NCBI RefSeq assembly: GCF_024171995.1
Contig: NZ_JAMTCT010000013.1
Span: forward strand, 62,001 to 126,000
Reading direction: 5' to 3'
From: Promicromonospora umidemergens
Lineage (GTDB): Bacteria; Actinomycetota; Actinomycetes; Actinomycetales; Cellulomonadaceae
Length of the DNA: 64,000 bases
Part shown: positions 2,813 through 64,000 of the stretch, one piece after another
Layout of the letters: each line of letters begins with the position of its first letter
Numbering within the stretch: position 1 is the first letter of the stretch
Made by a program: the position numbers and the translations under genes
The notes under the pieces: generated by a model
Database searches by the model: none
What the model saw: the letters and a program-made list of their open reading frames with translations, nothing else
What the model was told of the DNA's origin: nothing

Positions 2813-2817
2813 ACACC

Positions 2818-3037: not shown

Positions 3038-3061
3038 CGTGCTGCCCGCCGGAGGTGCACC

Positions 3062-3421: not shown

Positions 3422-3549
3422 CCCCCGATCCGTGCATCTTCCCAGGTCAGCGCACATTTTTAGGTTTTGCCCACTGCAGAGACCCGCGCATGTCCATTTT
3501 TCTAAACACGCACGGGGCTAGACGTGTAACAGGTTCGGGGGTGTAACAC

Positions 3550-5548: not shown

Positions 5549-5559
5549 GAGGAGCCACC

Positions 5560-13226: not shown

Positions 13227-13258
13227 CCCAGAGCTGAGACCGTGAGGGGGGTGCAGTC

Positions 13259-19040: not shown

Positions 19041-19041
19041 G

Positions 19042-22188: not shown

Positions 22189-22220
22189 CCTGACCCCGAC
22201 ACTCGCCCAAGAGGTCGAAA

Positions 22221-22257
22221 AAGAGCCCCCCACCGCCTCGAGCGGTGGGGGGCTCTT
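22221..22257. terminator. Strong bidirectional terminator at end of late genes
   Basis: AAGAGCCCCCCACCGC at 22221-22236, five-base loop, and a perfect 16-bp complement at 22242-22257. An A-run just left of it (GAAAAAG) gives a U-run on the minus strand, so it can stop both the late operon and the converging repressor gene. Confidence 0.9.
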
Positions 22258-22270
22258 GCCTTGCCTGGGG

Positions 22271-46106: not shown

Positions 46107-46895
46107 ATGGTCCGCACAGTGGGCGGCGTGGTGCCGGAGCCGGGACGGGTGATCGGCGTGGTCGGGGCGTGCGGTGGGGCAGGCGCGTCAGTGGTGGCCG
46201 CGTGCGTGGCCCACGGTCTGCGCCGGGGCGGTGAGCGCGCCACGCTCGTGGACCTCGACGCGCACGCACCGGGCACCGACCTGCTGCTGGGGGCCGACGG
46301 CGGGCCTGGCGCACGATGGCCGGACCTGATCGGGGCACGCGGCGAGGTCGAGGGCACGGGGGTGGTAGCGGCGCTGCCGCGCTGGGGCCTGGTGCCGGTC
46401 CTGAGCGGCACGGCATCGGGTCCACCGCCGGACGACGAGGTGGTGCTCGATGTCTGCCGCGGACTGGTCCGGGCGGGCGAGACCCTGGTGCTCGACCTGC
46501 CCCGGCCGGGCGCCTGGGGCACTGCCACGCGCCGCGGCGTCGGTGCAGCGGCCGAGGCGCCGGGCAGCGCCGGCCAGGCGGTGCGCACCCTGCTGGCTCG
46601 CTGCGAGAAGGCGCTGCTCGTGGTGCCGCTGACGTTGCCGGCGACCGTCGGCGCCCAACGGGTGCGTGACGCCCTACGTGGGACCGGTGTGCCGGACGTG
46701 CGGCTAGTGGTGCGCGGCCCGGCGCCGGGATCGGTCGACGAGGACGACGTGTCCGCAGCCCTTGGGCTGCCGGTCATCGCGGTGATGGGCAGGGACGCAG
46801 GGCTCGCCCGGGCGATCGAGCGCGGCGAGGGGCCTGCGATGTCTCACCGGGGCACACTCGGCCGGTTCGCGGCCGACGCGGCAGGTGCGCTGTGA
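46107..46895 (+). CDS. ssd: Ssd/CpaE-like (MinD-type) ATPase
   Basis: 262 residues from ATG 46107 with GGGGGAGG upstream. N-terminal deviant Walker-type GVVGACGGAGASVVA (about residues 16-30), then ATLVDLDAHAPGTDLLLG with the switch aspartates, and DEVVLDVCRGLVRAGETLVLDLP. It is the septum-site/CpaE family protein next to Tad genes and is shorter than usual because it lacks the N-terminal receiver-like domain. It overlaps tadA by four bases. It should help localise the Tad pilus machine. Confidence 0.85.
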   Translation: MVRTVGGVVPEPGRVIGVVGACGGAGASVVAACVAHGLRRGGERATLVDLDAHAPGTDLLLGADGGPGARWPDLIGARGEVEGTGVVAALPRWGLVPVLSGTASGPPPDDEVVLDVCRGLVRAGETLVLDLPRPGAWGTATRRGVGAAAEAPGSAGQAVRTLLARCEKALLVVPLTLPATVGAQRVRDALRGTGVPDVRLVVRGPAPGSVDEDDVSAALGLPVIAVMGRDAGLARAIERGEGPAMSHRGTLGRFAADAAGAL

Positions 46896-47503
46896 ACGGG
46901 CCGTCCGGTGCGGCCACACTGCTCGACGACGTCCGCGCCCGCCTCGCGACCGGTCGCACCGGCGCTGGTGCCGCCGTCCGCGACGCGGTACGGGACTCCG
47001 GCCGGGTGCTCGGGTCCGACGCGCTCCGGGACCTGGAACGCGCGGCCCGGGCAGAGCTCACGGGCGCCGGCCCGCTGCAGACCCTGCTCGACGCACCGGA
47101 CGTGACCGACGTGCTGGTGAACGGACCCGACGACGTGTGGGTCGATCGCGGCGCCGGGCTCGAGCAGGTACCGGTGCACCTCGGCACGGCCGCCGGCGTG
47201 CGTGCGCTCGCGGTCCGGCTCGCCGCGCTCGGCGGCCAGCGGCTCGACGACGCCTGCCCGACCGTGGACGCCCGCCTGCCCGACGGCACCCGGTTGCACG
47301 CGGTGCTGGAACCGCTCGCCGAGACGGGCGCGGTGATCTCCCTGCGGGTGCTCCGCAACCGCGTGTTCACGCTCGACGAGCTGGTTGCCGGTGGCGCCCT
47401 GCCGGGCCAGTGGGTGGGCCTGCTGCGCTCGCTCGTGCTGCGCCGGGCGAACGTGCTGGTCAGTGGCGGCACCGGCACCGGGAAGTCCACTTGGTGTTTC
47501 TGA
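46892..47503 (+). pseudogene. tadA: tadA/cpaF secretion ATPase, truncated in Walker A by element insertion
   Basis: Residues 1-200 match the N-terminal half of TadA/CpaF: LQTLLDAPDVTDVLVNGPDDVWVDR, QRLDDACPTVDARLPDGTRLHAV, LRVLRNRVFTLDELVAGG and SGGTGTGKST (192-200). Full-length proteins have about 380-420 residues, continuing with TTLLxALL, Walker B and the arginine/His boxes. Here the frame runs only WCF and stops at 47501-47503, and a serine recombinase follows. The insertion therefore splits the gene in the ATP-binding loop. The stump cannot be an active ATPase; the 3-prime half should lie at the right end of the element. Confidence 0.92.
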
Positions 47504-47720: not shown

Positions 47721-49220
47721 TTGATCGAGAGTATTGGCCTGCGCTCCAAGCATGGGCTGTCGGTCGAGGTGGCTGAGCAGGTTCTGGTCTATCTGCGGAT
47801 CAGTGAGGACCGCACGGGTGAGGCTGCTGGCGTCGAGCGTCAGAGAGACGATTGCCTCGATCTGTGCGCACGGCTCGGCTTGGTCGTGTCGGACGACGAC
47901 GTCTATATGGACAACGACACGTCGGCGTATCTGAACAAGAAGCGAAAGAGCTTCGACAGGATGCTCGCCCGCATCAAGTTGGGGCCTTCGCGTGTTGTCG
48001 TCTGGCATGTCGATCGCCTCTATCGCAAGCCTCGTGAACTTGAGGACCTGATCGAGCTCGTCGAGTCCCATCCGATCCGCATTGAGGCTGTGATGGGCGG
48101 TGCGTTCGATCTCAACACTCATGAGGGGCGGCTCATGGCGCGCCAGCTCGTCGCGATGGCTGCGTATGAGTCGGGGCACAAGGCTGATCGGATCCGGCGT
48201 GCGAACAAGCAGAAGGCGGAGCGCGGTGACTGGCACGGAGCCCCAAAGTTCGGCTATGGCATCGGTGGGGTCCTCATCCCGGAAGAGGCCATTGTCGTTC
48301 GCGAGATGGCGGACAGGTTCTTGGCGGGACAGTCCCTCGGGGCGATAACCAAGTGGCTGAACGAAGAGTCTGGCGTGCCGTCGCCGCGTGCGGGAAAGGG
48401 CACACTCGGGGTGTGGCACGCGACCACGGTGAAGTCGATCCTTGTCTCTGCACGCATCTCTGGGCAGCGTGCCTACGATCCGTCGCTGGGGACCACAGAT
48501 GGCCCCAATGGTCGGCAGATCTTGGGGCCGGGCAACTGGGAAGCGATCATCACCCCCGAGGAGACTGTCCGCATCCGAGCGATGCTCGGGAGCATGGACC
48601 GCAGGGTCGGCGCGTCGTCGGTCACTTTGCTCTCGACGATTGCCCGGTGCGGCAAGTGCGGTGCGGGTCTCGTGTCCGGGCAGCGTGGTCGCGGCAGCAG
48701 GAGAAGGGCGAGGCGGGACTACAGGTGCAAGCCGCACCCGGGCTACCCGGAACGGGGCGGCCTGAATGTCGCGGCACCGGCACTGGAAGAGCTTGTAAGC
48801 GAGGCAGTGATCGCACGTCTCGCGGTGACAAAACTGCCCGATACGGCATCTGACTCCTCTGGGATCGTGGCAGATGCTGTGGCGCAGATCGTCGCCGCCA
48901 GGGCACGACTTGAAGACATCGCCCGTGACTACGGGGCGGGGCTGGTGAGCCGATCCGAGGTATCTGCCGGTCGGGCTGCGGCGCAGAACGTGATCCACCA
49001 AGCCGAACTCATGCTTGGCAAGGTCAACCGCACCAGCGCTCTGAAGGGCCTCCCAATTGGCGACGAAGTGGCCCTGCGACGCGCCTGGGCGGAGGAGTGG
49101 TCGATTCCCCAGAAGCGGGCAATCATGTCCGCACTCATCGACACTCTTGTCGTCAACCCCGATCCGAATTGTGGGTCCCGCTTCCGGCCCGCAAGAGTCG
49201 AATTGACCTTCAAGGCGTAG
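47721..49220 (+). CDS. Large serine recombinase (integrase)
   Basis: 499 residues from TTG 47721. Catalytic domain at about 20-160 with VLVYLRISED (Ser28), GVERQRDDCLDLC, HVDRLYRKPRELEDLIELVE and QLVAMAAYESGHKADRIRRA. Recombinase domain at about 180-290 (FGYGIGG, WHATTVKSILVSARISGQRAY). A zinc ribbon CGKCGAGL at about 310-345 is followed by a second CKPHPGYP, and a coiled coil lies at 400-440. This is the typical phage/ICE large serine integrase that joins attP and attB. It lies immediately inside the junction with tadA. Excision would need a directionality factor, not recognised here. Confidence 0.95.
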   Translation: MIESIGLRSKHGLSVEVAEQVLVYLRISEDRTGEAAGVERQRDDCLDLCARLGLVVSDDDVYMDNDTSAYLNKKRKSFDRMLARIKLGPSRVVVWHVDRLYRKPRELEDLIELVESHPIRIEAVMGGAFDLNTHEGRLMARQLVAMAAYESGHKADRIRRANKQKAERGDWHGAPKFGYGIGGVLIPEEAIVVREMADRFLAGQSLGAITKWLNEESGVPSPRAGKGTLGVWHATTVKSILVSARISGQRAYDPSLGTTDGPNGRQILGPGNWEAIITPEETVRIRAMLGSMDRRVGASSVTLLSTIARCGKCGAGLVSGQRGRGSRRRARRDYRCKPHPGYPERGGLNVAAPALEELVSEAVIARLAVTKLPDTASDSSGIVADAVAQIVAARARLEDIARDYGAGLVSRSEVSAGRAAAQNVIHQAELMLGKVNRTSALKGLPIGDEVALRRAWAEEWSIPQKRAIMSALIDTLVVNPDPNCGSRFRPARVELTFKA

Positions 49221-51121: not shown

Positions 51122-52255
51122 TCACATGCCCGGACTGGGCTTCGTCCCGCCCGGCCGTGAGGGACCGTTCTCGGAGTCCGGGGCTTGCTGGGCTGAGCGG
51201 AGCTGGTTGATCCTGTCCCGGGCCACATCCAGGTCGACCCTGTGGGTATCTCCGGGCAGGTCCAGAGAGACGTACCTCTTCGGGGCGTCCAGGTTGGTCT
51301 CGTATGCCTCCAGTGGTGACGCGAGCGTGTCGGCGGTGAGCCCGGCCTGGCGTGCGTAGGTGACGATGGCGGACATGCCCACTGCGAGGTCGTGCTCGAG
51401 TCCTACGCTGTAGGGCCGGACGGTGAGTTCGGCGGGTGACCAAATGGTCTGCTGGATCGTTGGGTCGCCGAGGATTTGCTCGGGGTGTTTGAGGTAGTAC
51501 TCGTTGAGATGAGCCTGGAGCCCGTTGCGTTCGTAGGCCAGGGATCGCAAGAAGGTGTGCGGGTTGCGGGGTGCTCCGAAGTGGCGGCGCAGGACGAGAA
51601 TGTCGACGCAGCTGTCGTTGCCCGGATCGGTGCGCAGAGCGCCGGCAGGGAGACGCACCGCGCCGGCGAGCTCGCCCAGGTGGGCGATGTACTGGCGAAA
51701 CTGCGGGTCGGGGTCGTCGAGCAGTTCCTGGGAAACCAACGCGACGGTGAACCCGCCCGGTTCCGTGGTTTCCAGCATCGTGAGCACTCCGATGGTCTGG
51801 GTGAGCTGGCGCTGGTCGGCGATGCCGGGGCGGCGCAGGGCGACATCGACGTACGGGGCGACGCCGATCACGGCGTCGTGCTCGTCGTGGAAGGTATCCC
51901 CGTCCATCACCCGCAGGATCGTTCCGTGATGGGGCCAGGACGTCGCCGGGTCGTGCCCGGCGGGGATCTGCCCCGTGAAGCCGTTCGCCTGTCCCGGCTC
52001 GAGGCGGCGTTCGGAGGGCGGCAGTCCTGCCAGCACCTCCGGGTCCGGGCCGTGGGCCAGGAATCTGCCTTCGTAGATGCCCAGTTCACGCAGCGTCTTC
52101 CACACGTGGCGGGCGATCAGGTCGTGGGCAGCTGTGGCGTCCGCGGCGTCGTGATCGTGCATCGCGGCGATGTCCGCGCGTGCGGCGGCCTTGGCGTGCT
52201 CGTCATCGTCGTAAGCGTCGTCGAGGAAGCGCTCGACTTCGTCGTTGAACATCAT
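51122..52255 (-). CDS. Degenerate N6-methyltransferase-like protein, paralogue A
   Basis: 377 residues from ATG 52255, overlapping the DUF4913-like gene. The sequence follows the N-terminal methylase-like half of large ICE helicase/methylase proteins: HDLIARHVWKTLRELGIYEG, AVIGVAPYVDVALRRP (motif IV position with A-P-Y in place of N-P-P-Y), FTVALVSQELLDDP and CVDILVLRRHFGAP. The SAM-binding motif I (F-x-G-x-G) is not seen where RFLAHGPDP stands. Related to the genes at 59382 and 61462. The helicase part is absent, and the key residues look partly lost, so enzymatic activity is doubtful; it may be a DNA-binding or mimic protein. Confidence 0.6.
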   Translation of the reverse strand: MMFNDEVERFLDDAYDDDEHAKAAARADIAAMHDHDAADATAAHDLIARHVWKTLRELGIYEGRFLAHGPDPEVLAGLPPSERRLEPGQANGFTGQIPAGHDPATSWPHHGTILRVMDGDTFHDEHDAVIGVAPYVDVALRRPGIADQRQLTQTIGVLTMLETTEPGGFTVALVSQELLDDPDPQFRQYIAHLGELAGAVRLPAGALRTDPGNDSCVDILVLRRHFGAPRNPHTFLRSLAYERNGLQAHLNEYYLKHPEQILGDPTIQQTIWSPAELTVRPYSVGLEHDLAVGMSAIVTYARQAGLTADTLASPLEAYETNLDAPKRYVSLDLPGDTHRVDLDVARDRINQLRSAQQAPDSENGPSRPGGTKPSPGM

Positions 52256-53082
52256 GACCTTCCCGAACCGGCCCGCTGCTGCGGCATGACGCTGGGCGCT
52301 CGGCGTCGCGTCTCGGACCGGACCCGGCCTTCGACCGCGCGTCGGGCGGCGATGTCCTGGGCGACCCAAGCCTCGAAGTCCGCAGCCCTGTCAGTGAACG
52401 GGCGGGGTCGGACAGCGTCGGAGTCCCAGGTCTCCTGGGAACCGAACCCGGTCTCGCCGGGCCACAGGGTGACCGGGGTCGGGCGGTCCTCGGTCAGCCC
52501 GGTGCCACTGTGAGAGACCCACTCGGCCAGTCGGACCTGTGCCTCGACCAGCTCGCGATGCCACGTGATGGGGGCGGAGGCCGATGTCTTGGGGTCGTAC
52601 GCGGCCAGCCATGCGGTGTGCAGGGCTGACAGCTCCCACCGCAGCTCGGCGTGCCGGTGCCACAGCGGCGGGATCACCGTGATTCCGAGCCCGTAGTCGC
52701 GGCGCAGCCATGTCACCCACGCGTCCAGGTCCCGCCAGTACAGGCTGGCCTCCAGCGAGGACAGGAGGTTCAGGTTCATCGGCCGCAGCGGCAAGCTCGG
52801 TACAGCCGGCCGTCCCGGGCGATATGCGGACGCACCGCCAAAGCCTGTTGGTAGTGCGAAGGGGTCCTCATCGTCGGTGGGGTCGTCGTCCCCGTTGTGG
52901 TCGGTGCTCTCGTCGGGGCTGTCGAAGTCCTCATCCAGGGCCTCGACGTCGCTGGGCAGCATGAACGCGTTGTTCACGAAGTCGTCGAGCATCGTCTCGT
53001 CCGCCACGGAGCGCTCGGCCGAGTCGTGCGTGGGCCGATCGTTCTGGGCGTCGTCCGGAGTTGTGGTGTGGTTCTCATCCAT
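52252..53082 (-). CDS. DUF4913-like ICE protein
   Basis: 276 residues from ATG 53082 (AAGGAG at proper distance; GTG 53100 possible). Residues 1-80 are acidic and disordered (DEDFDSPDESTDHNGDDDPTDDEDP). The C-terminal domain (about 105-200) has LYWRDLDAWVTWLRRDYGLG, PPLWHRHAELRWELSALHTAWLAAYD and RLAEWVSH, the W-rich layout of DUF4913 found in actinobacterial conjugative elements. Function unknown; it is coupled to SSB upstream and methylase-like paralogue A downstream. Confidence 0.65.
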   Translation of the reverse strand: MDENHTTTPDDAQNDRPTHDSAERSVADETMLDDFVNNAFMLPSDVEALDEDFDSPDESTDHNGDDDPTDDEDPFALPTGFGGASAYRPGRPAVPSLPLRPMNLNLLSSLEASLYWRDLDAWVTWLRRDYGLGITVIPPLWHRHAELRWELSALHTAWLAAYDPKTSASAPITWHRELVEAQVRLAEWVSHSGTGLTEDRPTPVTLWPGETGFGSQETWDSDAVRPRPFTDRAADFEAWVAQDIAARRAVEGRVRSETRRRAPSVMPQQRAGSGRS

Positions 53083-53096
53083 GGCTGCGGGCTCCT

Positions 53097-53567
53097 TCAC
53101 GCGGTCCAGGAATCGGGCAGGATTCGGCCGGCGACGATCAGCTGGTCCAGATCGGCAGGCTGCCCCGGGCGGTGGTTGTCACTGGCCTTGAGCGCGTTCG
53201 TCCCTCTGCGAGCGATGCGACGAGCCCGGGTGACGCGGTAGGTGGTGCGGGCGGCGTCGTGCCCGATCCGGCGGGCCACGAACCAGGCCTCGCCGTCGCT
53301 GGTGGTCTTCACCCGCCCGGAGGCGACGAACCGGTCGCCGAACCGGAACCGACTGGTCATCCGGTCGGCGGCCTTGCCGAACACGACCAGATCGCACGGC
53401 ACCGCTGGGAAGTCCGCGAACTGACCGTCCCCCAGCGAAACCGGGACGGCCTCGGCCTCAACCCGCACCCGGACGAACGACCGACCGGCCCTGGTGTGCT
53501 GGAGCACGGGGTCTGCAGCCAGCCGACCCTCCAGGCTGACGGACGTGGGAATCGTCGAAGAAGACAT
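53097..53567 (-). CDS. ssb: Single-stranded DNA-binding protein family (OB fold)
   Basis: 156 residues from ATG 53567 (CAGGGAG upstream). The N-terminus IPTSVSLEGRLAADPVLQHT, then RSFVRVRVEAEAV, CDLVVFGKAADRMTSRFRFG and GRVKTTSDGEAWFVARRIG matches the SSB OB-fold strand order (G-x-L-x-x-D-P and V-x-x-F-G-x-x-A). The acidic C-terminal tip typical of housekeeping SSB is replaced by a basic, then neutral end. It would coat single-stranded ICE DNA during transfer or replication. Operon with the next two genes. Confidence 0.8.
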   Translation of the reverse strand: MSSSTIPTSVSLEGRLAADPVLQHTRAGRSFVRVRVEAEAVPVSLGDGQFADFPAVPCDLVVFGKAADRMTSRFRFGDRFVASGRVKTTSDGEAWFVARRIGHDAARTTYRVTRARRIARRGTNALKASDNHRPGQPADLDQLIVAGRILPDSWTA

Positions 53568-53757
53568 CGCAAGCTCCCTGTCGTTCAACCCCCACCGGCG
53601 TAGCGGGGTGCTGAGTGACAGGTGCGTTCCCGGACCCGCCGAAGCCGTCCTCACGCCCCCCGTATGCACTTCCCGCCGGTCAATGGGGAGCGATTCGGGC
53701 GTGCGCCGACCAGCTGGTGCCGAACCTGTGCACCTGCACACCGCACCAGGAAGGGCT

Positions 53758-54828
53758 TCAGCAGCCAGGGCCGGGCGAGTCGTGCGAGAGCCGCTGCGGC
53801 GCGATGCGGAACCGATCGCGGTGGGGGAATGGTGCGGATGTGATGCGGCGATGGTTCTGCTCGTCGACGATGTCCCGGATGTGCTCCGTGGTGGTGATCA
53901 GGTTCACGACGACGCCACGTGACGCGGGCGTGCGTCCGGCGTGCCACTGATAGCGGTCTAGGTCGACGGCGAGCTCGTTGAGCTCGTCCTGCAGGTGCTG
54001 ATGGCCGTCGGGGACGTTCTGGTCGGGGCGGTCGGCCACCAGGCGCAGCATCGCGCCGATCATGCTCCGCTCGATACTCACGCCTTGCGTCATGTCGCTA
54101 CCGGAGGGCAAGTTGCGGGCGCAGTCCGCGAGATCACGAGCGATCAGGTACTGATCCAAGGCGCTCACAGGGAGCGAGCTGTCCAGGAACTCGTTGGGCA
54201 GCTCGGCGAGCAGGACGTCGGCCTCGACGGCCCACTCGGTGCGCAGCACGGGCACGTTGTCCGGGTCGGACCCGCTGTCGAAGTTCCACTGGTCGTACGC
54301 CTCACGGTCCTCAGACCATGCCGCGTCCATGCGCTCGATGAGCTCGTCGGCCATCGCGTGGAAGCGTTCGATTCGCTGGGCTGGCGTCATCGCGGTGACT
54401 TCGGCGGGGTGGGCTGCCAGCGTGGCTTGAAAGGCGAGCCAGGCGTACATGCCGCGTCGCCCGCCGACCACGGACGACGCGTCCAGCACAGGCCGGTAAC
54501 TGGCCAGATGATCGCGCACCTTGTCCCATTGCTGGATGATCGGCGTGCGCAGCTCGGCAACGGTATGCAGACGGCTATCAGCGAGCGCGAGATGGGCGAC
54601 GACGTCGCCCCATCGGGGCGCACCAGTCGCCTCCCAGTCCTCCACCAGGCGCAGATCGCGGACCGCATTCTCGGAGGCTTCGACGTAGTCGCGGTAGTCC
54701 GTGTCGGCCCAGTCCCTCAGATGCTGGTACGCGTCCAGGGACTCGGCGAGACTCCTGCTCGCCTGCACGGCCTGAGCGAAGGCGTTCTCCACCAGGGCCT
54801 CAGGCGGCAGCATCGTCTGCTCGCTCAT
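53758..54828 (-). CDS. Hypothetical helical ICE protein
   Basis: 356 residues from ATG 54828. Nearly all helical, with acidic patches (RDWADTDYRDYVEASENAVRDL, LIERMDAAWSEDREAYDQW). It overlaps the coupling-protein gene by 29 bases, so translation is coupled. No domain recognised; similar-sized helical proteins sit after TraG-like genes in several actinobacterial elements. It may be an accessory of the coupling protein or relaxosome. No signal peptide. Confidence 0.6.
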   Translation of the reverse strand: MSEQTMLPPEALVENAFAQAVQASRSLAESLDAYQHLRDWADTDYRDYVEASENAVRDLRLVEDWEATGAPRWGDVVAHLALADSRLHTVAELRTPIIQQWDKVRDHLASYRPVLDASSVVGGRRGMYAWLAFQATLAAHPAEVTAMTPAQRIERFHAMADELIERMDAAWSEDREAYDQWNFDSGSDPDNVPVLRTEWAVEADVLLAELPNEFLDSSLPVSALDQYLIARDLADCARNLPSGSDMTQGVSIERSMIGAMLRLVADRPDQNVPDGHQHLQDELNELAVDLDRYQWHAGRTPASRGVVVNLITTTEHIRDIVDEQNHRRITSAPFPHRDRFRIAPQRLSHDSPGPGC

Positions 54829-56644
54829 CGACGTGGTCGCCTACTTCGTCAGGAACGGCGTCCCCGCTCGCGGCGGCCGTGCTGGCGCCGCTGCGGACGG
54901 TGGCTTCGAATGCCTCACGCCCGGCCGCCAGCTGCGCGGCGTCGGCGCGCTTGGTCCAAGGGCGCAGGGTGGCGATGATCGGCGGGGCCGAGCGCAGCAG
55001 GACCAGGTCGGTACCGAACGGCAAGGTCCGGATCGCCTCTGGCGGCATCACGGGCACCCGACGCAGGGAGCGCTGGATGCTGCGTGCTCCGGTCTCGTTG
55101 ATCGTCACCGAGTCGGTGACCTCGTCCTTCTCGCCGATCAGGGTGGACAGGTCGCGTAGGTCCCCGGTGGTGGAGATCCCGCCCAGGACGATCTTGACGA
55201 TCGCTGAGTCCCACATCGCTGCCGCGGTCTCGGCACCCCATTGGTCACGGGCCTGTGCCAGGGACTGGAACACCGGGATCGTGGTCATCCCGCTGCCACC
55301 GCCGTCGGCCATCAGGAACCGCAGCGAGGGCAGGGCAGCGATATTGCCGATCTCGTCCAGGGCAAGGAGCAGCGGCGGGTCCAGCCGCTGCCGCGGCGAG
55401 ACTGCGGCCAGGCGGCGTGCGGTCTCGGTGATGTCCTCGATCAGCGCCGCGATCAGGGCGCCGGACGCGGAGGCCCCGGAACCGGTGGCAAGCAGGTACA
55501 GCGTGCCGCGCTCGCGCAGGAACGCCTCGGGATCGAACACCTCGTCCGGGCCCGGGCTGACGGCATCGAGCACATCCGGGTCGGCCAGACACGACAGGGC
55601 CTGGCCAACCCCCATCCAGATGTTGTCCCGGGTGCGGGAGTCACCGTTGAGCATGCCGTCCAGCCCTTCGCCCCACCCGTGCGCGGCACGCGGGTGAGCG
55701 CGCAGGATCGCGACGGCGTCCGCAGCAGCGGCCGGCGACAACGACCACACGTACAGATCCTTGGGAGTACGGCCAGCCAAGGCCGCGGCATGCAGCAGGG
55801 CCTGCAGGGCGCCGCGGGTCGTGTTCTCCCAGAAGCTGCCGTTGTCCACGCCCTTGCCACCCAGCCCGGTCTCCTTGGCCAGCCCGGCTGCTCGCACCAT
55901 GGCGCGGCGCGGGGTCTCGCACCCACGGATCGGTGACCATCGCAGCCCGGCGGGCAGGTTCCCGGCCAGGCGCTGCGGATTGAACACCGCCACCGGTCCG
56001 ACAGCCTGTCGGGCGGCCATGGTCACGGCGAGCGTGTCCGGCCGGGTCGCGGTGGTGATGACAGCGCCGGGTGCGTCCAAGACCGCCGAGATGACCAGGT
56101 GCAAGCCTTTGCCGGAGCGGGGCGGACCGAGCACGAGCATGGAGTCCTCCACCGACGCCCACAGCTCGTGCCCGTGGGCGTAGCCCAGCAGGTACCCGAC
56201 GTCGGTCGGCTCGGCCCTGGGGACCGACGGGCGCAGCGTCCCCGACCGCTTCAGCAACGCCCGCCGGGACGCGGAGCGGGCCAGGTCGCGGGAGGTCGCA
56301 AGGCCCGCCTTGCTGGTGTGTGCCGACGGTGTGCGCAGGCTGGCCGCCGTGCGCCACACGACCCAGGCCAGCACCCCGCACCCGCCCAGAAGGACAGCGA
56401 CGGCGAGCCAGTACACGAACGGGTTCAGGCCGGCGGCGCCCACCACCCGGCCGGGGTCAGTCGGACTGGCCAGTACGCCAAGGCCGGAGGCCGGACCGCC
56501 GTCGGGCACGGTGTGGCCGGTCACGAGCGCTGCCAGGTTCGCGGAGAACCGCAGCACCGCCGACAACGTCAACAGCGCGACGAGCGCGCCCAGGGCCAGG
56601 TTGGTCAGCTCGTCGCCCATCGGGCGACCTGCCGCGGGAGTCAT
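54800..56644 (-). CDS. VirD4/TraG-family type IV coupling protein
   Basis: 614 residues. Two N-terminal membrane segments (about 13-38 and 76-99). Walker A GPPRSGKG at 173-180, Walker B LLLALDE at 425-431 with the DEIGN box, and the TraG-type segment MTTIPVFQSLAQARDQWG following. Residues 470-560 hold the remaining conserved blocks (IVKIVLGGISTTGDLRDLSTLIGE, RALQRVPVMPPEAIRTLP-like). It brings the relaxase-DNA complex to the secretion channel using ATP. The gene is in an operon with the ArdC-like gene and two unknown ones. Confidence 0.93.
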   Translation of the reverse strand: MTPAAGRPMGDELTNLALGALVALLTLSAVLRFSANLAALVTGHTVPDGGPASGLGVLASPTDPGRVVGAAGLNPFVYWLAVAVLLGGCGVLAWVVWRTAASLRTPSAHTSKAGLATSRDLARSASRRALLKRSGTLRPSVPRAEPTDVGYLLGYAHGHELWASVEDSMLVLGPPRSGKGLHLVISAVLDAPGAVITTATRPDTLAVTMAARQAVGPVAVFNPQRLAGNLPAGLRWSPIRGCETPRRAMVRAAGLAKETGLGGKGVDNGSFWENTTRGALQALLHAAALAGRTPKDLYVWSLSPAAAADAVAILRAHPRAAHGWGEGLDGMLNGDSRTRDNIWMGVGQALSCLADPDVLDAVSPGPDEVFDPEAFLRERGTLYLLATGSGASASGALIAALIEDITETARRLAAVSPRQRLDPPLLLALDEIGNIAALPSLRFLMADGGGSGMTTIPVFQSLAQARDQWGAETAAAMWDSAIVKIVLGGISTTGDLRDLSTLIGEKDEVTDSVTINETGARSIQRSLRRVPVMPPEAIRTLPFGTDLVLLRSAPPIIATLRPWTKRADAAQLAAGREAFEATVRSGASTAAASGDAVPDEVGDHVDERADDAAA

Positions 56645-56982
56645 GATGCACCCAGCCCGATACCACGCCCGCTCGGTGCCGGTCGGCGTGGTGGCTCAGG
56701 CGGACCGGTCGGGAACGTCAGGTCGGAGTGCTTCAGGTGTTCGGGAACGACCAAGCCCTTGAACGTGCGTCCTGCGCTCCTGGCGATGACCCACAGCGGC
56801 ATGTCCTGCTCGGTCACGAGCTCTCGAAGGATCCACGGGACATCCGTGCGGCCCAGTGAGACGTCGGCATCGTTCGAGAGGGGTGGCCAGGGCTGGCCGT
56901 GGAGGGTGACCGTGATGTGGCCGTCCTGGTCGATGTCGAGGACGACGTCGGCGCGATCTTCGTCGCGCAGTTGGCGGGTCAT
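56641..56982 (-). CDS. Small hypothetical ICE protein
   Basis: 113 residues; ATG overlaps the previous stop and its end overlaps the coupling-protein start. Compact alpha/beta domain with ADVVLDIDQDGHITVTLHGQPWP and PWILRELVTEQDMPLWVIARSAG; the tail is Pro/Gly/Arg-rich. No motif. Tight coupling with the coupling protein suggests a structural or regulatory role in transfer. Confidence 0.55.
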   Translation of the reverse strand: MTRQLRDEDRADVVLDIDQDGHITVTLHGQPWPPLSNDADVSLGRTDVPWILRELVTEQDMPLWVIARSAGRTFKGLVVPEHLKHSDLTFPTGPPEPPRRPAPSGRGIGLGAS

Positions 56983-58136
56983 CGCCCGATCCCCGTCGTT
57001 GACACCGGACGGGCACGGTCGGGTACCCCGAGTTCAGATCCGACGGAGTCGCCACCAGGGAGCGCCGTCGCTTCAGTCACGCCGGTTGACAGGGCGGCAG
57101 CGCGACGCCGTGTCCCGCTTCGGGCGGCCCGTTCCGGCTTCGCACTTTGGTCCAGGCCCGGCGGGTCGCTGTCGGGGACCAGGACCGTGTCCAGCGCGCC
57201 CAGGATCTCCAGGGCAGCTCGACGCACGCGGACTGCGGTCTGGGCAACCAGGGCGGACGGGTCCTGGCCCTCGACTCTGGACGCCCACGTCGTGACGTAG
57301 GGGATGGAGTAGTCGTCGGTCTGCATCCCGTGGGCGGCGGCGACCATCAGCGCGACCGATTCGGCCTCGACCTCCTTGATGCCACGGTGCTGCGCGGCAT
57401 CTTGGTCCGTGCGGTCGTGCAGGAGGATGTGCCCGGCTTCGTGGATGAGCGTCTTGCAACGCTGCACGTCGTCCCGGTCGGCCCGGAGCTGGACGCTCTT
57501 CGTGTCGTAGTCGGTGAGCCCGTTACGGCTGCTCGGCCAGCCAGTGGCGGGTGCGTCACCGACGGTGAAGCCCTTGGCCTCGATGACCTTCTTGACTCCG
57601 TCGAACAGACCGGCCGGCGCCTGGCCCTGCAAGAGCTGCGGGCTGGGCGCGACGGGTTTGGTCGGGACCGGGTCACCGTCGGTCAGTGCCAGCGGCCACA
57701 CGTACGCGGGCGCCCATCCGACCACCCGCGTGTCGATCGTCTCGTGCGGCTCAGGCGTTTCGCCGCGCGCCAGTCGGCGGTAGGAACCGTCCTCGGAGAC
57801 GGCGACGCGTCCTTCGACGGGCGCCAGGATCTGAAAGCCCGCCATGTCCTTGATGACGTGGCGGCCCAGCTTCTTCCACTGCTTGTACCCGGCGACGTAC
57901 TCCGGAGGGCCAGCGGGCACGAGTCCGGCCTCATGAGCCTGGGCGTTCTGGACCCAGATCAGCATCGTGTTCCCGAACGAGTACCTGCGGAACTTCGCCG
58001 CGAACTCGAGCGCACGCCGCCAGTCCTCCGGCGTGATCAGCTCGGCGACCGCGACGGTCAGCTTCTCGTGTAGCGCGTCGACCTTGGCCTTACGATCGGC
58101 GATCTTCTGATCCAGGGTCCGGCTGTCTTTGCGCAT
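56979..58136 (-). CDS. ArdC-like antirestriction protein with zinc-metalloprotease motif
   Basis: 385 residues from ATG 58136. N-terminal domain (about 10-150) is ArdC N-terminal type: KVDALHEKLTVAVAELITPEDWRRALE, FRRYSFGNTMLIWVQNAQA and YVAGYKQWKKLGRHVIKDMAG, which bind single-stranded DNA in ArdC. C-terminal domain has HEAGH at 232-236 and VEAESVA near 256, the zinc peptidase core. Such proteins protect transferred single-stranded DNA from restriction. The last 80 residues are variable. A hairpin covering the ribosome-binding site precedes the start. Confidence 0.88.
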   Translation of the reverse strand: MRKDSRTLDQKIADRKAKVDALHEKLTVAVAELITPEDWRRALEFAAKFRRYSFGNTMLIWVQNAQAHEAGLVPAGPPEYVAGYKQWKKLGRHVIKDMAGFQILAPVEGRVAVSEDGSYRRLARGETPEPHETIDTRVVGWAPAYVWPLALTDGDPVPTKPVAPSPQLLQGQAPAGLFDGVKKVIEAKGFTVGDAPATGWPSSRNGLTDYDTKSVQLRADRDDVQRCKTLIHEAGHILLHDRTDQDAAQHRGIKEVEAESVALMVAAAHGMQTDDYSIPYVTTWASRVEGQDPSALVAQTAVRVRRAALEILGALDTVLVPDSDPPGLDQSAKPERAARSGTRRRAAALSTGVTEATALPGGDSVGSELGVPDRARPVSTTGIGR

Positions 58137-58139
58137 TGT

Positions 58140-58165
58140 TGCCTCCCAGACGTGTCTGGAAGGCA
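58140..58165. promoter_or_regulatory. Hairpin covering the ribosome-binding site of ardC-like gene
   Basis: TGCCTCCCAGAC at 58140-58151, two-base centre, GTCTGGAAGGCA at 58154-58165, one mismatch. On the minus strand the second arm contains GGGAGGC just 4 bases before the ATG at 58136, so the stem would hide the ribosome-binding site; a repressor operator is the alternative. Confidence 0.65.
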
Positions 58166-58355
58166 GGGGGAAAGACGGCCCCGCTGACCGAGCAGCGTCC
58201 GGCAGCTACGTCACTGGCGGCCAGCCGCGACGCTGCGGGAGGTTGGCGCTGGTCGCAGGATCGACTGTCGGGTCGTTCTCGTGCGCGGCGTAGTCGGCCT
58301 CGCTGACCGGTGCTGGGCTTGGTGCCACACCGTCCGCACGACAGACGTGCCGGTG

Positions 58356-59360
58356 TCACCTCAGCCGGCCGTGAGGAGGTGCCGGGCGCTGCGACGGCGC
58401 CGGACCCTCGAGGGGCACCGCGCCACGGCTGGCGCGGCGGAGCATCCGGGCGACGTCGTCGGCGTTCGTGACCAAGACCGCCTCCCCGCTGCTGATCAAC
58501 TCGTGCGAAGCCACTGAGGTCAGGCTCGTGACAGGGCCCGGGAAGGCACCAAGGGGGCGACCCAGAGCGAGGGCTTCCTCGCACACGCCTGGGGTCTTGG
58601 AGCGGTTACGAGCCTCGATCGCGACCATCCCGCCGGACAGTGCGGCGGTGATTCGGTGCCGGGCTCGCGCAGCGGCATGGGAGGGGAGGATCCCGGGAGG
58701 TGTCTCGGTGAGCAGGACACCCCCGTTGTCACGGATCCGGTGAAACAGGCTCATGTTCGCTGGCGGGAGGGGGTTGTCCAGGCTGCCGGCCAGGACGACG
58801 ATCGTCGCTCCGCCGGATACGTAGGCTCCGCGGTGGGCTTCGAGGTCGATGCCGTGCGCGCCGCCGGAGACCACCTGGAGGCCCCGGCCGGCCAGGTCGT
58901 GTGCGAGCTTCTGAGCCGTGACCAGTCCGTATTCGGTCGCTGCCTGACGACCGACGACGGCGACGCGGTCGGTATGGGGCGTGGCGAGCAGGCTGGTATT
59001 TCCTTCGGCCCACAGCGCCAGGGGCGCCCAGTGGCCCAGGTCTTCCAATCCGGTCGGCCAGTGCGGGTCTGACGGGATCAGGACCCGGGGATCAGGGGCG
59101 AGGGCGGTGAAGAACGCGCCCGCGATGTCGGGCTCAGCGAGGCGTTCCCGGATCGTGGTGCGCCACTCATCCACCTCCCAGAGCGTGTGCATGTCGACTG
59201 GCTCGCTTCCGAGCGCGAGGCGCAGGGTCTCGATGGCGCCGCGGGCAGAGACCCAGCCACCCATGACCGCGGCGGTGCCCGGCGGGCTGATCACTGCGAG
59301 CAACGCGCGGGCAGTGCGCTCGTCGACGTCGTCGAGGTTCAGGTCGAACGGGCTCATCAT
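58356..59360 (-). CDS. dprA: DprA/Smf-family DNA-processing protein
   Basis: 334 residues from ATG 59360 (TTG 59369 gives a slightly longer form). A Rossmann-like fold: VAVVGRQAATEYGLVTAQKLAH, LQVVSGGAHGIDLEAHRGA, ATIVVLAGSLDNPLPPAN and GGVLLTETPPGILPSHAAAR, then RNRSKTPGVCEEALALGRPL. The core is that of DprA/Smf, which binds single-stranded DNA and loads RecA. The N-terminal 100 residues are not the usual SAM-like domain, and the winged helix at the end is missing or degenerate. It lies between ArdC and a methylase-like gene, so it probably serves incoming element DNA rather than natural transformation. Confidence 0.85.
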   Translation of the reverse strand: MMSPFDLNLDDVDERTARALLAVISPPGTAAVMGGWVSARGAIETLRLALGSEPVDMHTLWEVDEWRTTIRERLAEPDIAGAFFTALAPDPRVLIPSDPHWPTGLEDLGHWAPLALWAEGNTSLLATPHTDRVAVVGRQAATEYGLVTAQKLAHDLAGRGLQVVSGGAHGIDLEAHRGAYVSGGATIVVLAGSLDNPLPPANMSLFHRIRDNGGVLLTETPPGILPSHAAARARHRITAALSGGMVAIEARNRSKTPGVCEEALALGRPLGAFPGPVTSLTSVASHELISSGEAVLVTNADDVARMLRRASRGAVPLEGPAPSQRPAPPHGRLR

Positions 59361-59381
59361 CGACTCCAATCAGTACGAGGC

Positions 59382-60401
59382 TCACATACCCGGGGCGCTG
59401 CCAGGGCATGGCGCAGTGCCGTCGGGGCGTCCTGGAAATGTGCTCCGCGTGGTGGCCCGGGCGGACCAGTCGGCCTGCGGGGCGAGTCTGGAATCGGGCG
59501 GGTTCCACGACGCGGAGACCGCCGTGAGCCCGCGGTCTCGGGCATCCCTGGTGATCTGGGCCAGGGCGGTCTCCAGTGCGCTGTCCCACGGGACCTCTCC
59601 GTGGTCCACGGTGTACTGGGTGCCGTCCCGGTCCGGGTCCGTGACCGCCCGGGGCTGGCCGATGACGTGATCAGGGTGGTGCACGGCGTACCACTCGTTG
59701 ACGTGTGCGGTGCCACCAGGAAGGTCGACCGGGTCGACGCGCAGGCAGTCGGCCGGCTCGGGTGTCTCGTGGGGAAGTGGGCGTCGCAGAACCAGCACGT
59801 CGACTGGCGATGCCTCGTCGGGGCCATGGTGATGCAGCACCGTTCCAGGCAGACGGACCGCACCCAGCAGCTGGGCCTTCTGGGTGAACAGGAAGCGCCG
59901 GGTGGTGGTGGCCGGGTGGTCCAGGATCTGACGGGCCGTGATGGCCACGAGCACCCCGCCAGGGAACGTGCGCGCCAGTGCCTGGGCCAACAGGTCCCGG
60001 TGAACCTGCCCGATCCGGCGCGTGCCGTGCACGGACCGGGGATGCAGGCCGGCCAGCGGGACATTCGCGATCACGACGTCGTGCTGCGCCGGGTCGTACA
60101 TGGTGAGCTCGGCCAGGCGCAGGGCCTGGTGCGGCCACCACACGGGCGGGATCGCAGCGGTCAGCTCCCGGTAGCGGGCATCGGTGCGTGCACCAGGAGC
60201 GCGCGGAGCAGGAGCCGGGACACCGGCAAGCGTCGCCGCATAGGGACCGGTCACCAGCATTCGACCCCGCGCGACCCCGAGGTCGCGCAGCGCACCCCAG
60301 ATCTTCTCGGCCAGGATCGTGTGAGCTGTTCGAGAGGCGTACCGGTCGTGGCGGTGGATCGCCGCGGCGTCCAGGACGTTCAAGACCTCTTCTGTCGGCA
60401 C
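59382..60401 (-). CDS. Degenerate N6-methyltransferase-like protein, paralogue B
   Basis: 339 residues from GTG 60401. It shares the block order of the genes at 51122 and 61462: HTILAEKIWGALRDLGVARG, DVVIANVPLAGLHPRSVHGTR (motif IV position N-V-P-L), QVHRDLLAQALARTFPGGVL, LLGAVRLPGTVLHH and PVDVLVLRRPLPHE. The C-terminus has ALETALAQITRDARDRGLT. Motif IV is altered and the G-rich SAM motif is not evident. It stands just upstream of dprA (21 bases) on the same strand, so they are co-transcribed. Confidence 0.65.
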   Translation of the reverse strand: MPTEEVLNVLDAAAIHRHDRYASRTAHTILAEKIWGALRDLGVARGRMLVTGPYAATLAGVPAPAPRAPGARTDARYRELTAAIPPVWWPHQALRLAELTMYDPAQHDVVIANVPLAGLHPRSVHGTRRIGQVHRDLLAQALARTFPGGVLVAITARQILDHPATTTRRFLFTQKAQLLGAVRLPGTVLHHHGPDEASPVDVLVLRRPLPHETPEPADCLRVDPVDLPGGTAHVNEWYAVHHPDHVIGQPRAVTDPDRDGTQYTVDHGEVPWDSALETALAQITRDARDRGLTAVSASWNPPDSRLAPQADWSARATTRSTFPGRPDGTAPCPGSAPGM

Positions 60402-60700
60402 GACGTCACCGTCCTCTCGTTGCCGCCTGCCGGACGAGGCGGTCGAGGATCAGGTACGGGCGCACGTCCGGGGCGCCAGCGTTTCGACCGGGCGGACGGT
60501 GTGCTTCGCACAGTGACTCTCGGAACGAGGGGGCTTCGGACGGCGGTGGCGCAGAACGCCGAATGACGCACCACACGCTCGATGGCGACGGCGATGGCGA
60601 TGGCGGCAAGGCACGAGTCGTTGAGAGCGCCGCGGACGCGAGTAGGCTCGCTGCGCCCGCGTGGTCAGATCGGGTGGCGGGCTGCTGAGGAGGTCAGATC
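60402..60700. other. Intergenic stretch with short tandem repeats
   Basis: 299 bases without a convincing gene. It contains four close copies of GATGGCGAC/GATGGC between about 60580 and 60606. It includes the promoter of the minus-strand operon starting at 60401 and of the small plus-strand gene. Confidence 0.45.
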
Positions 60701-60847
60701 GTGCCGCGAGATCGCCGCGAGCGTTCCTGGGGATGGCCGGAGGTGGCGATCGTCGTGCTCTTGTCGATGACCGTGTTGGCTGGCCTCGCGATAGCTGCCG
60801 CCGTGTGGTTCGTGTCGAACGTCAACTGGGCCGGTTGGGACTTCTGA
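60701..60847 (+). CDS. Small single-pass membrane protein (48 aa)
   Basis: GTG 60701 with GAGGAGG at 60687-60693 upstream; TGA at 60845-60847. The protein starts MPRDRRERSWGWPEVAIVV, continues with a hydrophobic helix (VVLLSMTVLAGLAIAAAVWF) and ends SNVNWAGWDF. A charged N-terminus and single helix with an aromatic tail resemble conjugation or surface small membrane peptides. It is the only plus-strand gene in this segment and is below usual size limits. Function unknown. Confidence 0.6.
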   Translation: MPRDRRERSWGWPEVAIVVLLSMTVLAGLAIAAAVWFVSNVNWAGWDF

Positions 60848-60966
60848 CTCGACCGCGAATCTGATCCGCATGCCGGGCTCGCCTGGCGTACCGGCGGTGG
60901 ACACATCCTCGGCACCTCAGCGGGATAACGCGTCCTCGTAAGAGGCTGAGATCGTCGTGAGCTGTC

Positions 60967-61422
60967 CTACAGTTTTGGCCCGAGTGGCCGGTGGGACCGG
61001 TGCGGCATGCGGTGGGGAGCCTCCTGGTGCGCTAGGGCGTTGCTCTCCCGGCGGGCCCAGGTCTGAGCTCGCACGAGCAGTTCCACGACATCTGGTGACG
61101 CCACCTGGCCCTCCTCCTCGACCACCAACTTGTAGGCGCCGTCTTGGTGGACGACTCGCCGGGTGTGCCAGGTCCACGAGGTCGGGAGACGGTCCTCCGG
61201 GTAGGGCCAGTCGATGCCCGTGTACTGCTCTTCGATCGCGAACAGCGCTTGGTCCTGTCCTTCGGAGTACAGGATGAAGTGCCCCGGCGAGAACCGTTCA
61301 GGATCGCCTTCGTCGTTCAGGTAGACATGCTGCTCATACGTGCGCGCGATGCGCGCGAGCCCGTCGGTGAGCACATACATGCTCAACACCAGTCGCTCCG
61401 TATCGGGTATCTCCTGTGTCAT
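60967..61422 (-). CDS. Hypothetical ICE protein
   Basis: 151 residues from ATG 61422 (GAAGGGG about 8 bases upstream). Alpha/beta with RLVLSMYVLTDGLARIARTY, FSPGHFILYSEGQDQALFAIEEQY and SWTWHTRRVVHQDGAYKLVVE. It reads as a compact domain with a final basic tail. No relationship recognised. It follows the methylase-like paralogue C by 40 bases on the same strand and is likely in its operon. Confidence 0.55.
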   Translation of the reverse strand: MTQEIPDTERLVLSMYVLTDGLARIARTYEQHVYLNDEGDPERFSPGHFILYSEGQDQALFAIEEQYTGIDWPYPEDRLPTSWTWHTRRVVHQDGAYKLVVEEEGQVASPDVVELLVRAQTWARRESNALAHQEAPHRMPHRSHRPLGPKL

Positions 61423-61461
61423 CTCCTGCACCCCTTCCCGCACGACGTAGCGGCCCGGTCT

Positions 61462-62421
61462 TCAGACGCCCGGGGTGTTGCTCGTGGGGAAAGCGCGGTC
61501 GCGACGACTTGGCGCCGAGGTGCGAGCGGACCGCCCAGCCTCAGCAGAAGGTGACAGCGACGCTGCGGTGAGTCCGTTGGCGCGGCCTTCCTGCGCGATC
61601 TGCCGCAGGCTGAGTCGCAAGGCAGGTTCCAGCTCGCGGTCCGGAGCTACAACGGTCATTCGCGGCGTTCGGTGGTCGCAGTCCTCGACGAAGTCGATCC
61701 GCCCGACGACGTGGTGCGGGTAGTTCGTAAAGTAGGTGTTGATGCTGGCCTGGCCGCTGGGGAAGACGCCCCGGCCGCTGTCGACCCAGGGAACCGACCG
61801 GTTCGGCTCTCCGTCGAGGCGACGGCGCAGCACGAGCAGATCGGTGGGCGAGGTCTGCTCGTGGGTGAGCGTGGGGTGGTAGATGGTCCCGGGCAGCCGT
61901 ACGGCGCCCAGCAGGTCCAGTTCCTGGTCGATGGCCCGGCGGAACATTGGATTCTCGTGGTCCATGAGGTGCCGGGTGGCCAGGGCGACGAGGAACCCAC
62001 CTGCGGCAGTACGCTCCGCGGCGGCGAACAGCAGCTCCTGGTGGACCTGGAGGACGCGTCTGGCGTGCGAGCTGCGGAAGTGCAGGTCGGCATAGGGCAG
62101 GTTGGCGATGATGACGTCCAGGGGCGGGTCGGTGTCGAACTGCGGCGTCAGCACGGCGTCGTAGATGTCGCCGGCGGGGCGGATGGGACCTGTCCACTCC
62201 GCGTAGGACCCGGCCTCGCCGTACTCCTCAGGCGTGGCGTGGCCGGTGAACGTCGCGGCGTCCATCCCGATACAGGTCACCGAGCCGTGCGTGAGGCCCA
62301 GTCCGCGCAAGGCGGTCCAGATCTGCCTGGTCAGCATCTGGTGCGCTGGACGGGTATCGAGCGCGTCGTGAGACTCCATGGCCGCGGCGTCGATCAGGTC
62401 CAGCTCATGTTCAGTGGGCAT
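61462..62421 (-). CDS. Degenerate N6-methyltransferase-like protein, paralogue C
   Basis: 319 residues from ATG 62421. Same architecture as the two relatives: HQMLTRQIWTALRGLGLTHG, DVIIANLPYADLHFRSSHAR (motif IV I-A-N-L-P-Y, the best kept of the three), HQELLFAAAERTAAGGFLVALAT, LLGAVRLPGTIYHP and PTDLLVLRRRLDG. The C-terminal repeat ALRLSLRQIAQEGRANGL is conserved. The N-x-P-Y sequence could still be functional for base handling, but the SAM motif I is not clear. Its own upstream region lies within the 180 bases to 62601. Confidence 0.7.
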   Translation of the reverse strand: MPTEHELDLIDAAAMESHDALDTRPAHQMLTRQIWTALRGLGLTHGSVTCIGMDAATFTGHATPEEYGEAGSYAEWTGPIRPAGDIYDAVLTPQFDTDPPLDVIIANLPYADLHFRSSHARRVLQVHQELLFAAAERTAAGGFLVALATRHLMDHENPMFRRAIDQELDLLGAVRLPGTIYHPTLTHEQTSPTDLLVLRRRLDGEPNRSVPWVDSGRGVFPSGQASINTYFTNYPHHVVGRIDFVEDCDHRTPRMTVVAPDRELEPALRLSLRQIAQEGRANGLTAASLSPSAEAGRSARTSAPSRRDRAFPTSNTPGV

Positions 62422-63047: not shown

Positions 63048-63085
63048 AAGTTCCCGCGAAACCTTCAAAATCAGCGCGAACTTCT
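63048..63085. terminator. Hairpin between converging ICE genes
   Basis: GAAGTTC at 63048-63054 pairs with GAACTTC at 63079-63085, with CGCG bases extending the pairing. It lies at the 3-prime end of the minus-strand VirB4-like gene (63084) and after the plus-strand gene. Confidence 0.5.
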
Positions 63086-64000
63086 AGGTTTTGGCGCGCA
63101 TTCGCTGAGTGCTGTCGTAGAGCCGTGCTTCGACGTCGTGCAGTTGATGTTGCACGAGGACAGCGCGTTCGCGGATGCGCCACAGGGCCTGGCCGAGGCC
63201 GAGCATCGGGAGCCGGGCGCGCTCGGTTGCGGTCAGGCCGAGGGCCGCCGCGGTCGCGCCGAGCTGGTCGGTTTCCTGCCGGTAGATGATCCGAGTCTCG
63301 GCCAAAGCGAGCAAGGAGGTCGCGATGGCACGGGCTGCGGAACCCGAGTCGCCGACGTTGTCCAGGTCGGAGAGCTTGTGGACGACGAAAAGGTTCGCGA
63401 TGCCGTAGTAGCGCGCCAACCGCCACTGAGCATCCATCCGACGCAGCAGGGCAGGTTGGCTCATGAGCCTCCACGCCTCGTCGTACACGACCCATCGCTG
63501 TCCACCGTCGGGGTCGGACAGCGCGGCTTCCATCCACGCGGAGCTGCACGTCATCAGGACGCTCATGGCGGTGGAGCTCTCGCCGACACGGGACAGGTCC
63601 AAGGAGAGCATCGGCAGCGACGGGTCGAACCTCACGGTGCTGGGGCCGTCAAACATCCCGCTCAAATCGCCGGCGACCAGACGTCGCACAGCGTGGGCGA
63701 CCGACCGGCCGTCTTCGACCAGCCTGCCGTCCGGGTCGTCGTCGCGGTGCGGGGCCAGCAGGTGATCGACGACCTGAGGCAGGACCGGGGCGCCACCCGC
63801 GACGCGGTCGGCCGCGGCCAGAGCGACGTCGATCGCGGTGTGCTCCACGGGCGACAGCGGCCGGTCGAGCACGGTCTCTGCCAGCGCCCCGAGCAAGGTA
63901 CGGCGCCGGGTCTGAACCTGGCCCGCCCAGACGTCGTCGGGCACAGACGCGGGGCGGTATCCCTCGTCCAACGGGTTGAGCCGGGCAGACATACCAGGAC
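63084..64000 (-). CDS. VirB4/TraC-family conjugation ATPase, C-terminal part
   Basis: The frame enters from the right edge on the minus strand and stops at 63084, giving about 305 residues. It starts within DPGMSARLNPLDEG-like sequence, the segment after Walker A in VirB4 proteins. Walker B is QRWVVYDEAWRLMSQPALLRRMDAQW, with RYYGIANLFVVHKLSDL next, and ALLALAETRIIYRQETDQL is the arm region of the family. VirB4 energises the type IV secretion channel. It belongs with the coupling protein at 54800-56644; the N-terminal half lies right of the window. Confidence 0.92.
   Translation of the reverse strand, partial: PGMSARLNPLDEGYRPASVPDDVWAGQVQTRRRTLLGALAETVLDRPLSPVEHTAIDVALAAADRVAGGAPVLPQVVDHLLAPHRDDDPDGRLVEDGRSVAHAVRRLVAGDLSGMFDGPSTVRFDPSLPMLSLDLSRVGESSTAMSVLMTCSSAWMEAALSDPDGGQRWVVYDEAWRLMSQPALLRRMDAQWRLARYYGIANLFVVHKLSDLDNVGDSGSAARAIATSLLALAETRIIYRQETDQLGATAAALGLTATERARLPMLGLGQALWRIRERAVLVQHQLHDVEARLYDSTQRMRAKT

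Follow-up and report, generated by a model that had tools for sequence, protein, structure and literature searches.

The stretch of DNA analysed here (64,000 nucleotides of contig NZ_JAMTCT010000013.1 of Promicromonospora umidemergens, hereafter the window) contains three minus-strand genes, designated MT-A, MT-B and MT-C, which sit in an integrated conjugative element. An earlier note on this DNA had placed them in a conjugative element, and the gene for a coupling protein (PF02534, E 7.5e-25) and a SCO6880 family protein encoded just beyond the window end bear this out. The note had also described an ordered set of blocks common to the three genes, namely a helix, a motif IV position and V-R-L-P-G and V-D-I-L-V-L-R-R strands, all of which were found in the alignment of the three proteins. 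The three open reading frames (ORFs; Table 1) proved to be paralogues in pairwise BLASTP, with 32% identity between A and B (E 3e-26), 36% between B and C (E 2e-50) and 30% between A and C (E 3e-27). As these alignments span approximately 300 residues, the common blocks reflect homology and not low complexity, and one of the outcomes that the note had named as fatal to its own proposal, alignment through low-complexity sequence only, is thereby set aside.

All three proteins matched the DarB-like antirestriction profile phrog_10089 within its methylase part (E 9e-16 to 3e-19 for MT-A and MT-B, and similarly for MT-C), which places them in the DarB-type methylase-domain family and, together with their position in the tree described below, agrees with the proposed likeness to the methylase half of giant helicase/methylases. 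The helicase is indeed missing: the proteins have only 319–377 amino acids (aa), and matches to the family in this genome lie in open frames of 173–595 aa. None of the three proteins had a Pfam or NCBIfam match above cut-off, and MT-C gave a weak match to mad2 of the MADS defence system (PADLOC, E 3.7e-4). Searches of the PDB returned nothing for the sequence of MT-C, chance-level matches only for a three-row family profile, and weak matches to lmo1582 and EcoKI M (E 0.14–0.43) for a 14-row profile.

In a joint alignment of 53 stand-alone rows (four of which repeat another row and two of which are fragments) with nine full-length relatives, the E-x-G-x-G signature of S-adenosylmethionine (SAM) motif I is present in 9/9 full-length proteins and in 0/53 stand-alone rows. 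The corresponding segments read LAHGPDPEVL, LVTGPYAATL and TCIGMDAATF in MT-A, MT-B and MT-C, respectively, as against LEPGxGxGxF in the full-length relatives; the acidic residue of the motif is kept in none of the 53 stand-alone rows and the first glycine in 52. The earlier note had seen no SAM-binding loop, which is correct in so far as there is no working loop, but the position of the loop exists and is occupied by degenerate sequence. The E of the ELD motif (9/9 full-length, 1/53 stand-alone) and the N-x-P-[FYW] signature (9/9 and 5/53) show the same division, and the Asn of motif IV is retained in 16/53 stand-alone rows. Neither SAM motif I with an NPP[YF]-like motif IV nor a fused SNF2-type helicase, by which DarB-type proteins may be recognised, was found in MT-A, MT-B or MT-C.

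In a maximum-likelihood tree of 56 rows, a branch with 100/100 support divides the nine full-length from 47 stand-alone proteins. Copy A clusters with copies of three other genomes (G002, G014 and G027), and copies B and C cluster with one copy each of G123, G002 and a second element of this genome on contig C4. Because A on the one hand and B and C on the other group with copies of other elements, at least two subfamilies predate this element; the distinct roles that the note had read from the three copies fit this division, each subfamily having close kin in other elements. Among 25 close pairs, which comprise non-window copies, dN/dS (ratio of nonsynonymous to synonymous substitution rates) was 0.25–0.52 in 24 and 0.91 in one: purifying selection acts on close relatives of the window copies. 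Judged by sequence, MT-A, MT-B and MT-C are members of a stand-alone family that derives from the DarB methylase half and is catalytically degenerate.

The AlphaFold2 model of MT-B, made from a 24-row alignment, has a mean pLDDT (predicted local distance difference test score) of 74.6, with residues 306–339 below 50, and its C-terminal tail is accordingly predicted to be disordered. In a Foldseek search of the PDB the top match was EcoKI M (2ar0; E 1.8e-5, probability 1.00, 13% identity, TM-score 0.25), and the best matches were N6-adenine methylases, type I M subunits among them, with TM-scores of about 0.25; the model has an HsdM-like fold despite this low score. Ocr- and ArdA-bound M complexes are among these matches, Ocr and ArdA being inhibitors of type I restriction that mimic DNA. 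The model of MT-A, from a three-row alignment (pLDDT 53), was set aside.

The three copies counted in the note hold for the window, but the genome as a whole has 15 family-profile matches, some of them fragments: three in the window, nine on contig C4, two on C1 and one on C15 (88 of 88 candidates scored). The nine copies on C4 lie within 21 kb (72992–93583) in a second element with its own machine genes; close kin of this array occur in similar order in genomes G123 and G097. The DarB query (833 aa) found two methylase-sized places in this genome, with two of 32 candidates scored. Among 200 genomes of the bacterial family, 30 (this one included) had a match at E ≤1e-3, at most ten candidates being scored per genome; for seven of these the frame of the listed match spans at least 1599 aa, which points to full-length DarB-like genes there. 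G123, of the same genus, has at least nine matches within 18 kb of one contig, and copy number differs widely between elements. A search of one family alignment against genome contigs found no relative. Viral contigs yielded 76 relatives; the 27 examined are all encoded in frames of 1615 aa or more, and no stand-alone copy was seen among these 27.

The C-terminus of most stand-alone copies consists of a Pro/Arg-rich linker followed by a short tail, e.g. PGPSL, EPGIDL, APGM or PDLGL, with a consensus of roughly G-x-[G/D/E]-[L/M/R]-COOH; this Pro-rich linker and tail are a new observation of the present study. Similar C-terminal ends occur on accessory proteins of these elements that are unrelated to the MT family. 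Under a model of the last seven residues, trained solely on 42 MT tails, 58 of 160 non-MT element ORFs exceeded the chromosomal 95th percentile, where 8 would be expected, and 17 exceeded the 99th, as against an expectation of 1.6; these ORFs, taken from 16 element regions with spurious ORFs included, differed from 291 chromosomal ORFs at a Mann-Whitney p of 3.7e-14. Counts by family were made with a simple tail rule, met by 17/291 chromosomal ORFs. Among machine families, named by annotation or position, it was met by the coupling protein in 1/13, VirB4 in 0/7, SCO6880 in 0/5 and VirB6-like proteins in 0/4, and M23 (0/3), ParB-like (0/3), SSB (0/8) and the 282-aa family (0/10) gave none. Among candidate cargo families, which were chosen after the tails had been seen, the counts were ArdC 7/12, DprA 4/7, a small family 4/9, a 363-aa family 3/6, a 291–310-aa family 4/5, a 151–173-aa family 2/5, IEPPF 5/5 and a 160-aa family 3/3. 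On the Microbacterium amylolyticum plasmid NZ_CP049254.1, a C-terminal pattern TGPVT...GPxL is common to a DarB-like protein, a zeta toxin and a Fic protein, and a part of it is found in a hypothetical protein.

Relaxases are the substrates moved by conjugative type IV secretion systems (T4SSs). We compiled 45 PF03432-type relaxases with non-redundant tails, a few of them being weak matches; they end in sequences such as SGPGMDR, PDQGIGR, DDGIGR, DHGMEL and RGPER, and built models of the last six residues of relaxases and DarB proteins, a tail passing if it scored above the chromosomal 95th percentile. The relaxase-trained model passed 15/24 full-length DarB, 16/42 MT and 4/12 ArdC tails, and 2/27 plasmid machine proteins; the DarB-trained model passed 34/45 relaxases and 23/42 MT tails. 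When a model from relaxases and DarB proteins of other elements was applied to the window, MT-A, MT-B and the ArdC protein reached chromosomal percentile 1.000 and the DprA-like protein 0.993, and two small proteins stood at 0.63 and 0.61. Across 13 elements, relaxase and DarB tails resembled each other within an element more than in mismatched pairs (permutation p 0.006–0.02 at four tail lengths). Nine of these pairs came from 14 plasmid records, which were taken from hit lists and not at random (the other five records had no pair), and four from contigs on which both the relaxase and the DarB searches of 347 genomes had matched; in two pairs the DarB gene was split and its final fragment supplied the tail, and in one the relaxase was of the MobF type.

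The genes around MT-A, MT-B and MT-C are listed in Table 1. The truncated VirB4-like piece had no Pfam match, the 356-aa protein no relative in the other element regions compared, and no HsdS or HsdR genes were noticed in the element. The DprA-like protein matched the defence-system protein ShosA (E 1.8e-34), and DprA-like genes bearing tails recur across these elements. At its left side the element interrupts a cpaF/TadA-type ATPase gene (window 46892–47503) at the Walker A codons: the left part ends in GTGKST and is followed by the integrase gene, and the right part lies in the same genome on contig C14 (14996–15559), with 91% identity to that of the relative G097. This split suggests that the serine integrase targets a conserved GK[ST] site. 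On contig C13, at approximately 133–140 kb, three genes that by eye look like those for TniQ, a TniB-type ATPase and a transposase adjoin T4SS genes, which would fit the insertion of a transposon into the element.

Table 1. Genes of the element within the window, and loci with the shared C-terminal pattern on plasmid NZ_CP049254.1. Tail percentiles are chromosomal percentiles under the model trained on relaxase and DarB tails.
Feature	Position	Strand	Matches and remarks	Tail percentile
Large serine recombinase (integrase), left end of element	47721..49220	+	XisF-type match E 3.7e-27, below cut-off	0.19
MT-A, stand-alone pseudo-methyltransferase	51122..52255	-	377 aa; phrog_10089 E 9e-16; tail ..PSPGM	1.000
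282-aa protein directly upstream of MT-A	52252..53100	-	One of a family of 10 in element regions; DUF4913 only E 0.044	0.52
SSB-like protein	53097..53741	-	PF00436 E 1.1e-5, just under cut-off	0.60
356-aa protein, candidate cargo	53758..54828	-	No family above cut-off; tail ..SPGPGC	0.979
VirD4/TraG-type coupling protein	54800..56644	-	PF02534 7.5e-25, PF12696 4e-24; without tail	0.216
113-aa protein, small DVDxDGH family	56641..56982	-	Weak tail here; hydrophobic tail in 4/9 relatives	0.22
ArdC-N / M78 peptidase protein	56979..58136	-	PF08401 2.5e-8, PF06114 2.2e-7; tail ..STTGIGR as in several relaxases	1.000
DprA-like protein, candidate cargo	58356..59369	-	PF02481 1.4e-44	0.993
MT-B, stand-alone pseudo-methyltransferase	59382..60401	-	339 aa; phrog_10089 E 3e-19; tail ..SAPGM	1.000
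158-aa protein, possible cargo	60967..61443	-	No known family; tail ..LGPKL	0.907
MT-C, stand-alone pseudo-methyltransferase	61462..62421	-	319 aa; phrog_10089 E 2e-19; tail ..NTPGV	0.777
VirB4-like ATPase, cut by window end	63084..64000	-	Named by position and by eye; cluster of 7 in elements	0.18
NZ_CP049254.1, DarB-like protein	2602-7782		Pattern TGPVT...GPxL
NZ_CP049254.1, zeta toxin	18850-19881		Pattern TGPVT...GPxL
NZ_CP049254.1, Fic protein	21898-22482		Pattern TGPVT...GPxL
NZ_CP049254.1, hypothetical protein	12621-13583		Part of the pattern

The reading we favour, albeit tentatively, is that the MT proteins are pseudo-HsdM cargo which the T4SS delivers as an anti-restriction payload. 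They would be pseudo-methyltransferases with an HsdM fold, derived from the methylase half of DarB-type helicase/methylases, whose disordered Pro/Arg-rich linker presents the short C-terminal tail to the coupling protein, so that they may be recognised there and carried, like the relaxase, into the recipient along with the DNA. In the recipient they would interfere with restriction or with related methylase-based defence; inactive HsdM mimics may occupy partner subunits or DNA sites and in this way spoil type I complexes or compete for sites, and divergent copies could cover different host systems. The anti-restriction mimic already proposed in the earlier note appears to be the likeliest role. 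More generally, SCO6880-type actinobacterial conjugation possibly exports proteins by means of a short address tag at the C-terminus of relaxase and payload alike, elements of the bacterial family carrying up to approximately nine inactivated HsdM-like decoys as counter-defence cargo; the payload would then comprise pseudo-HsdM arrays, DarB, ArdC, DprA, Fic and zeta toxins, and proteins of no known family.

Several observations speak against a delivered, tail-addressed cargo. The motif comprises few residues and is loosely defined, MT tails ending mostly in L and relaxase tails in R, and the MT-trained model recovers just 11/45 relaxases. Machine proteins are not all free of it: VirB6-like proteins pass the relaxase model in 3/4 cases and VirB4 in 2/7, the DarB-trained model passes 6/27 plasmid machine proteins, and SSB reaches percentile 0.952 with a model from MT and DarB tails. 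The tail of MT-C itself stands at only 0.777 with the relaxase and DarB model (0.959 with the model from other MT and DarB tails). No obvious shared tail was seen on the Citricoccus NZ_CP133844 and Arthrobacter NZ_CP015735 plasmids, and a profile search found no PF03432 relaxase match in this genome. Finally, the sequences within each tail set are related, and the p values are therefore optimistic.

The tail could instead be a docking or stability element, such as a bound C-terminal peptide or a degron, with the MT proteins acting in their own host, e.g. against competing elements or phages. Short terminal motifs have many uses, and the weak mad2 match of MT-C (E 3.7e-4) and the ShosA match of the DprA-like neighbour (E 1.8e-34) would suit a role in the host, but a general stability element would not explain why the motif is common to relaxases and matches within elements, and we regard this explanation as rather unlikely. 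A role in the donor is likewise unlikely: here the tail would dock the MT proteins at the coupling protein as relaxosome or substrate-sorting subunits, perhaps in place of a classical relaxase complex and without entry into the recipient. The tail shared with relaxases, the lack of a PF03432 match in the genome and the proximity of the MT genes to the coupling-protein gene are all consistent with it; the wide variation in copy number among elements, the tailless coupling protein, VirB4 and SCO6880 families and the full-length kin, which are anti-restriction proteins travelling with DNA (PMC5512222), argue against it.

It is also quite improbable that the likeness is mostly one of composition, arising from disordered high-GC tails in which G, P, D, E and R abound. 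The tails are rich in Pro, Gly and Asp, and with the relaxase and DarB model disorder-like chromosomal tails pass slightly more often (14/153) than all chromosomal ORFs (35/610), but MT tails pass in 27/42, unlike those of machine proteins from the respective elements. Moreover, in MT, DarB, relaxase and cargo proteins the terminal six residues score above both the windows upstream of them and shuffled versions of themselves (p 1e-3 to 3e-14), as against p 0.016–0.64 in 74 machine proteins and, for 291 chromosomal proteins, p of at least 0.1 in five of six comparisons and of 0.003 in the sixth; both position and order of the residues matter. That the MT proteins still methylate, through an unusual SAM site, is scarcely credible, given the loss of the motif I acid (0/53), the ELD glutamate (1/53) and the motif IV Asn (16/53), even though the fold is kept in the MT-B model, the motif I glycine in 52/53 and N-x-P-[FYW] in 5/53.

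If the reading as delivered cargo is correct, a readable end-tag would make the likely cargo of many actinobacterial elements listable from sequence alone, and inactivated methylases would be a delivered counter-defence that mimics a methylase subunit rather than DNA. In the open-licence literature searched, neither a tail of this kind nor stand-alone MT arrays were found described, and no protein-export signal was found for actinobacterial conjugation systems.

DarB resides in the head of phage P1 and shields DNA in cis against EcoK-type enzymes; the DarB type, which has an N-terminal LPD36 domain, represents the methylase-helicase dyad of polyvalent proteins (PMC5512222). DarB-type methylase-SNF2 proteins (phage P1 DarB, phrog_10089) share the methylase domain with the MT family by profile and tree, both occur on conjugative elements, and a similar C-terminal tail is present in 15/24 full-length relatives; the MT family differs in being without the helicase, in its lost catalytic motifs, in its several divergent copies per element and in forming one separate branch. 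HsdM (EcoKI M, PDB 2ar0) is the best PDB match of the MT-B model, but the MT proteins have lost SAM motif I, and the TM-score is just 0.25. Many T4SS effector signals are located at the C-terminus (PMC10025392), the T4SS of the F plasmid moves many proteins, some by C-terminal signals (PMC11288057), ArdC of pSa and TraC1 of RP4 are transferred during conjugation (PMC5512222), and links between Fic toxins and T4SS effectors are known from Bartonella (PMC5675462). The MT proteins are likewise candidate cargo with a putative C-terminal signal, and an ArdC-like protein bearing a similar tail is encoded beside them; conjugative co-transfer of proteins has been studied in Gram-negative plasmids (PMC11288057), whereas the MT element is of the actinobacterial SCO6880 type. 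Like Ocr and ArdA, the MT proteins would block type I enzymes without enzymatic activity of their own, but they would do so by mimicking the methylase subunit and not the DNA.

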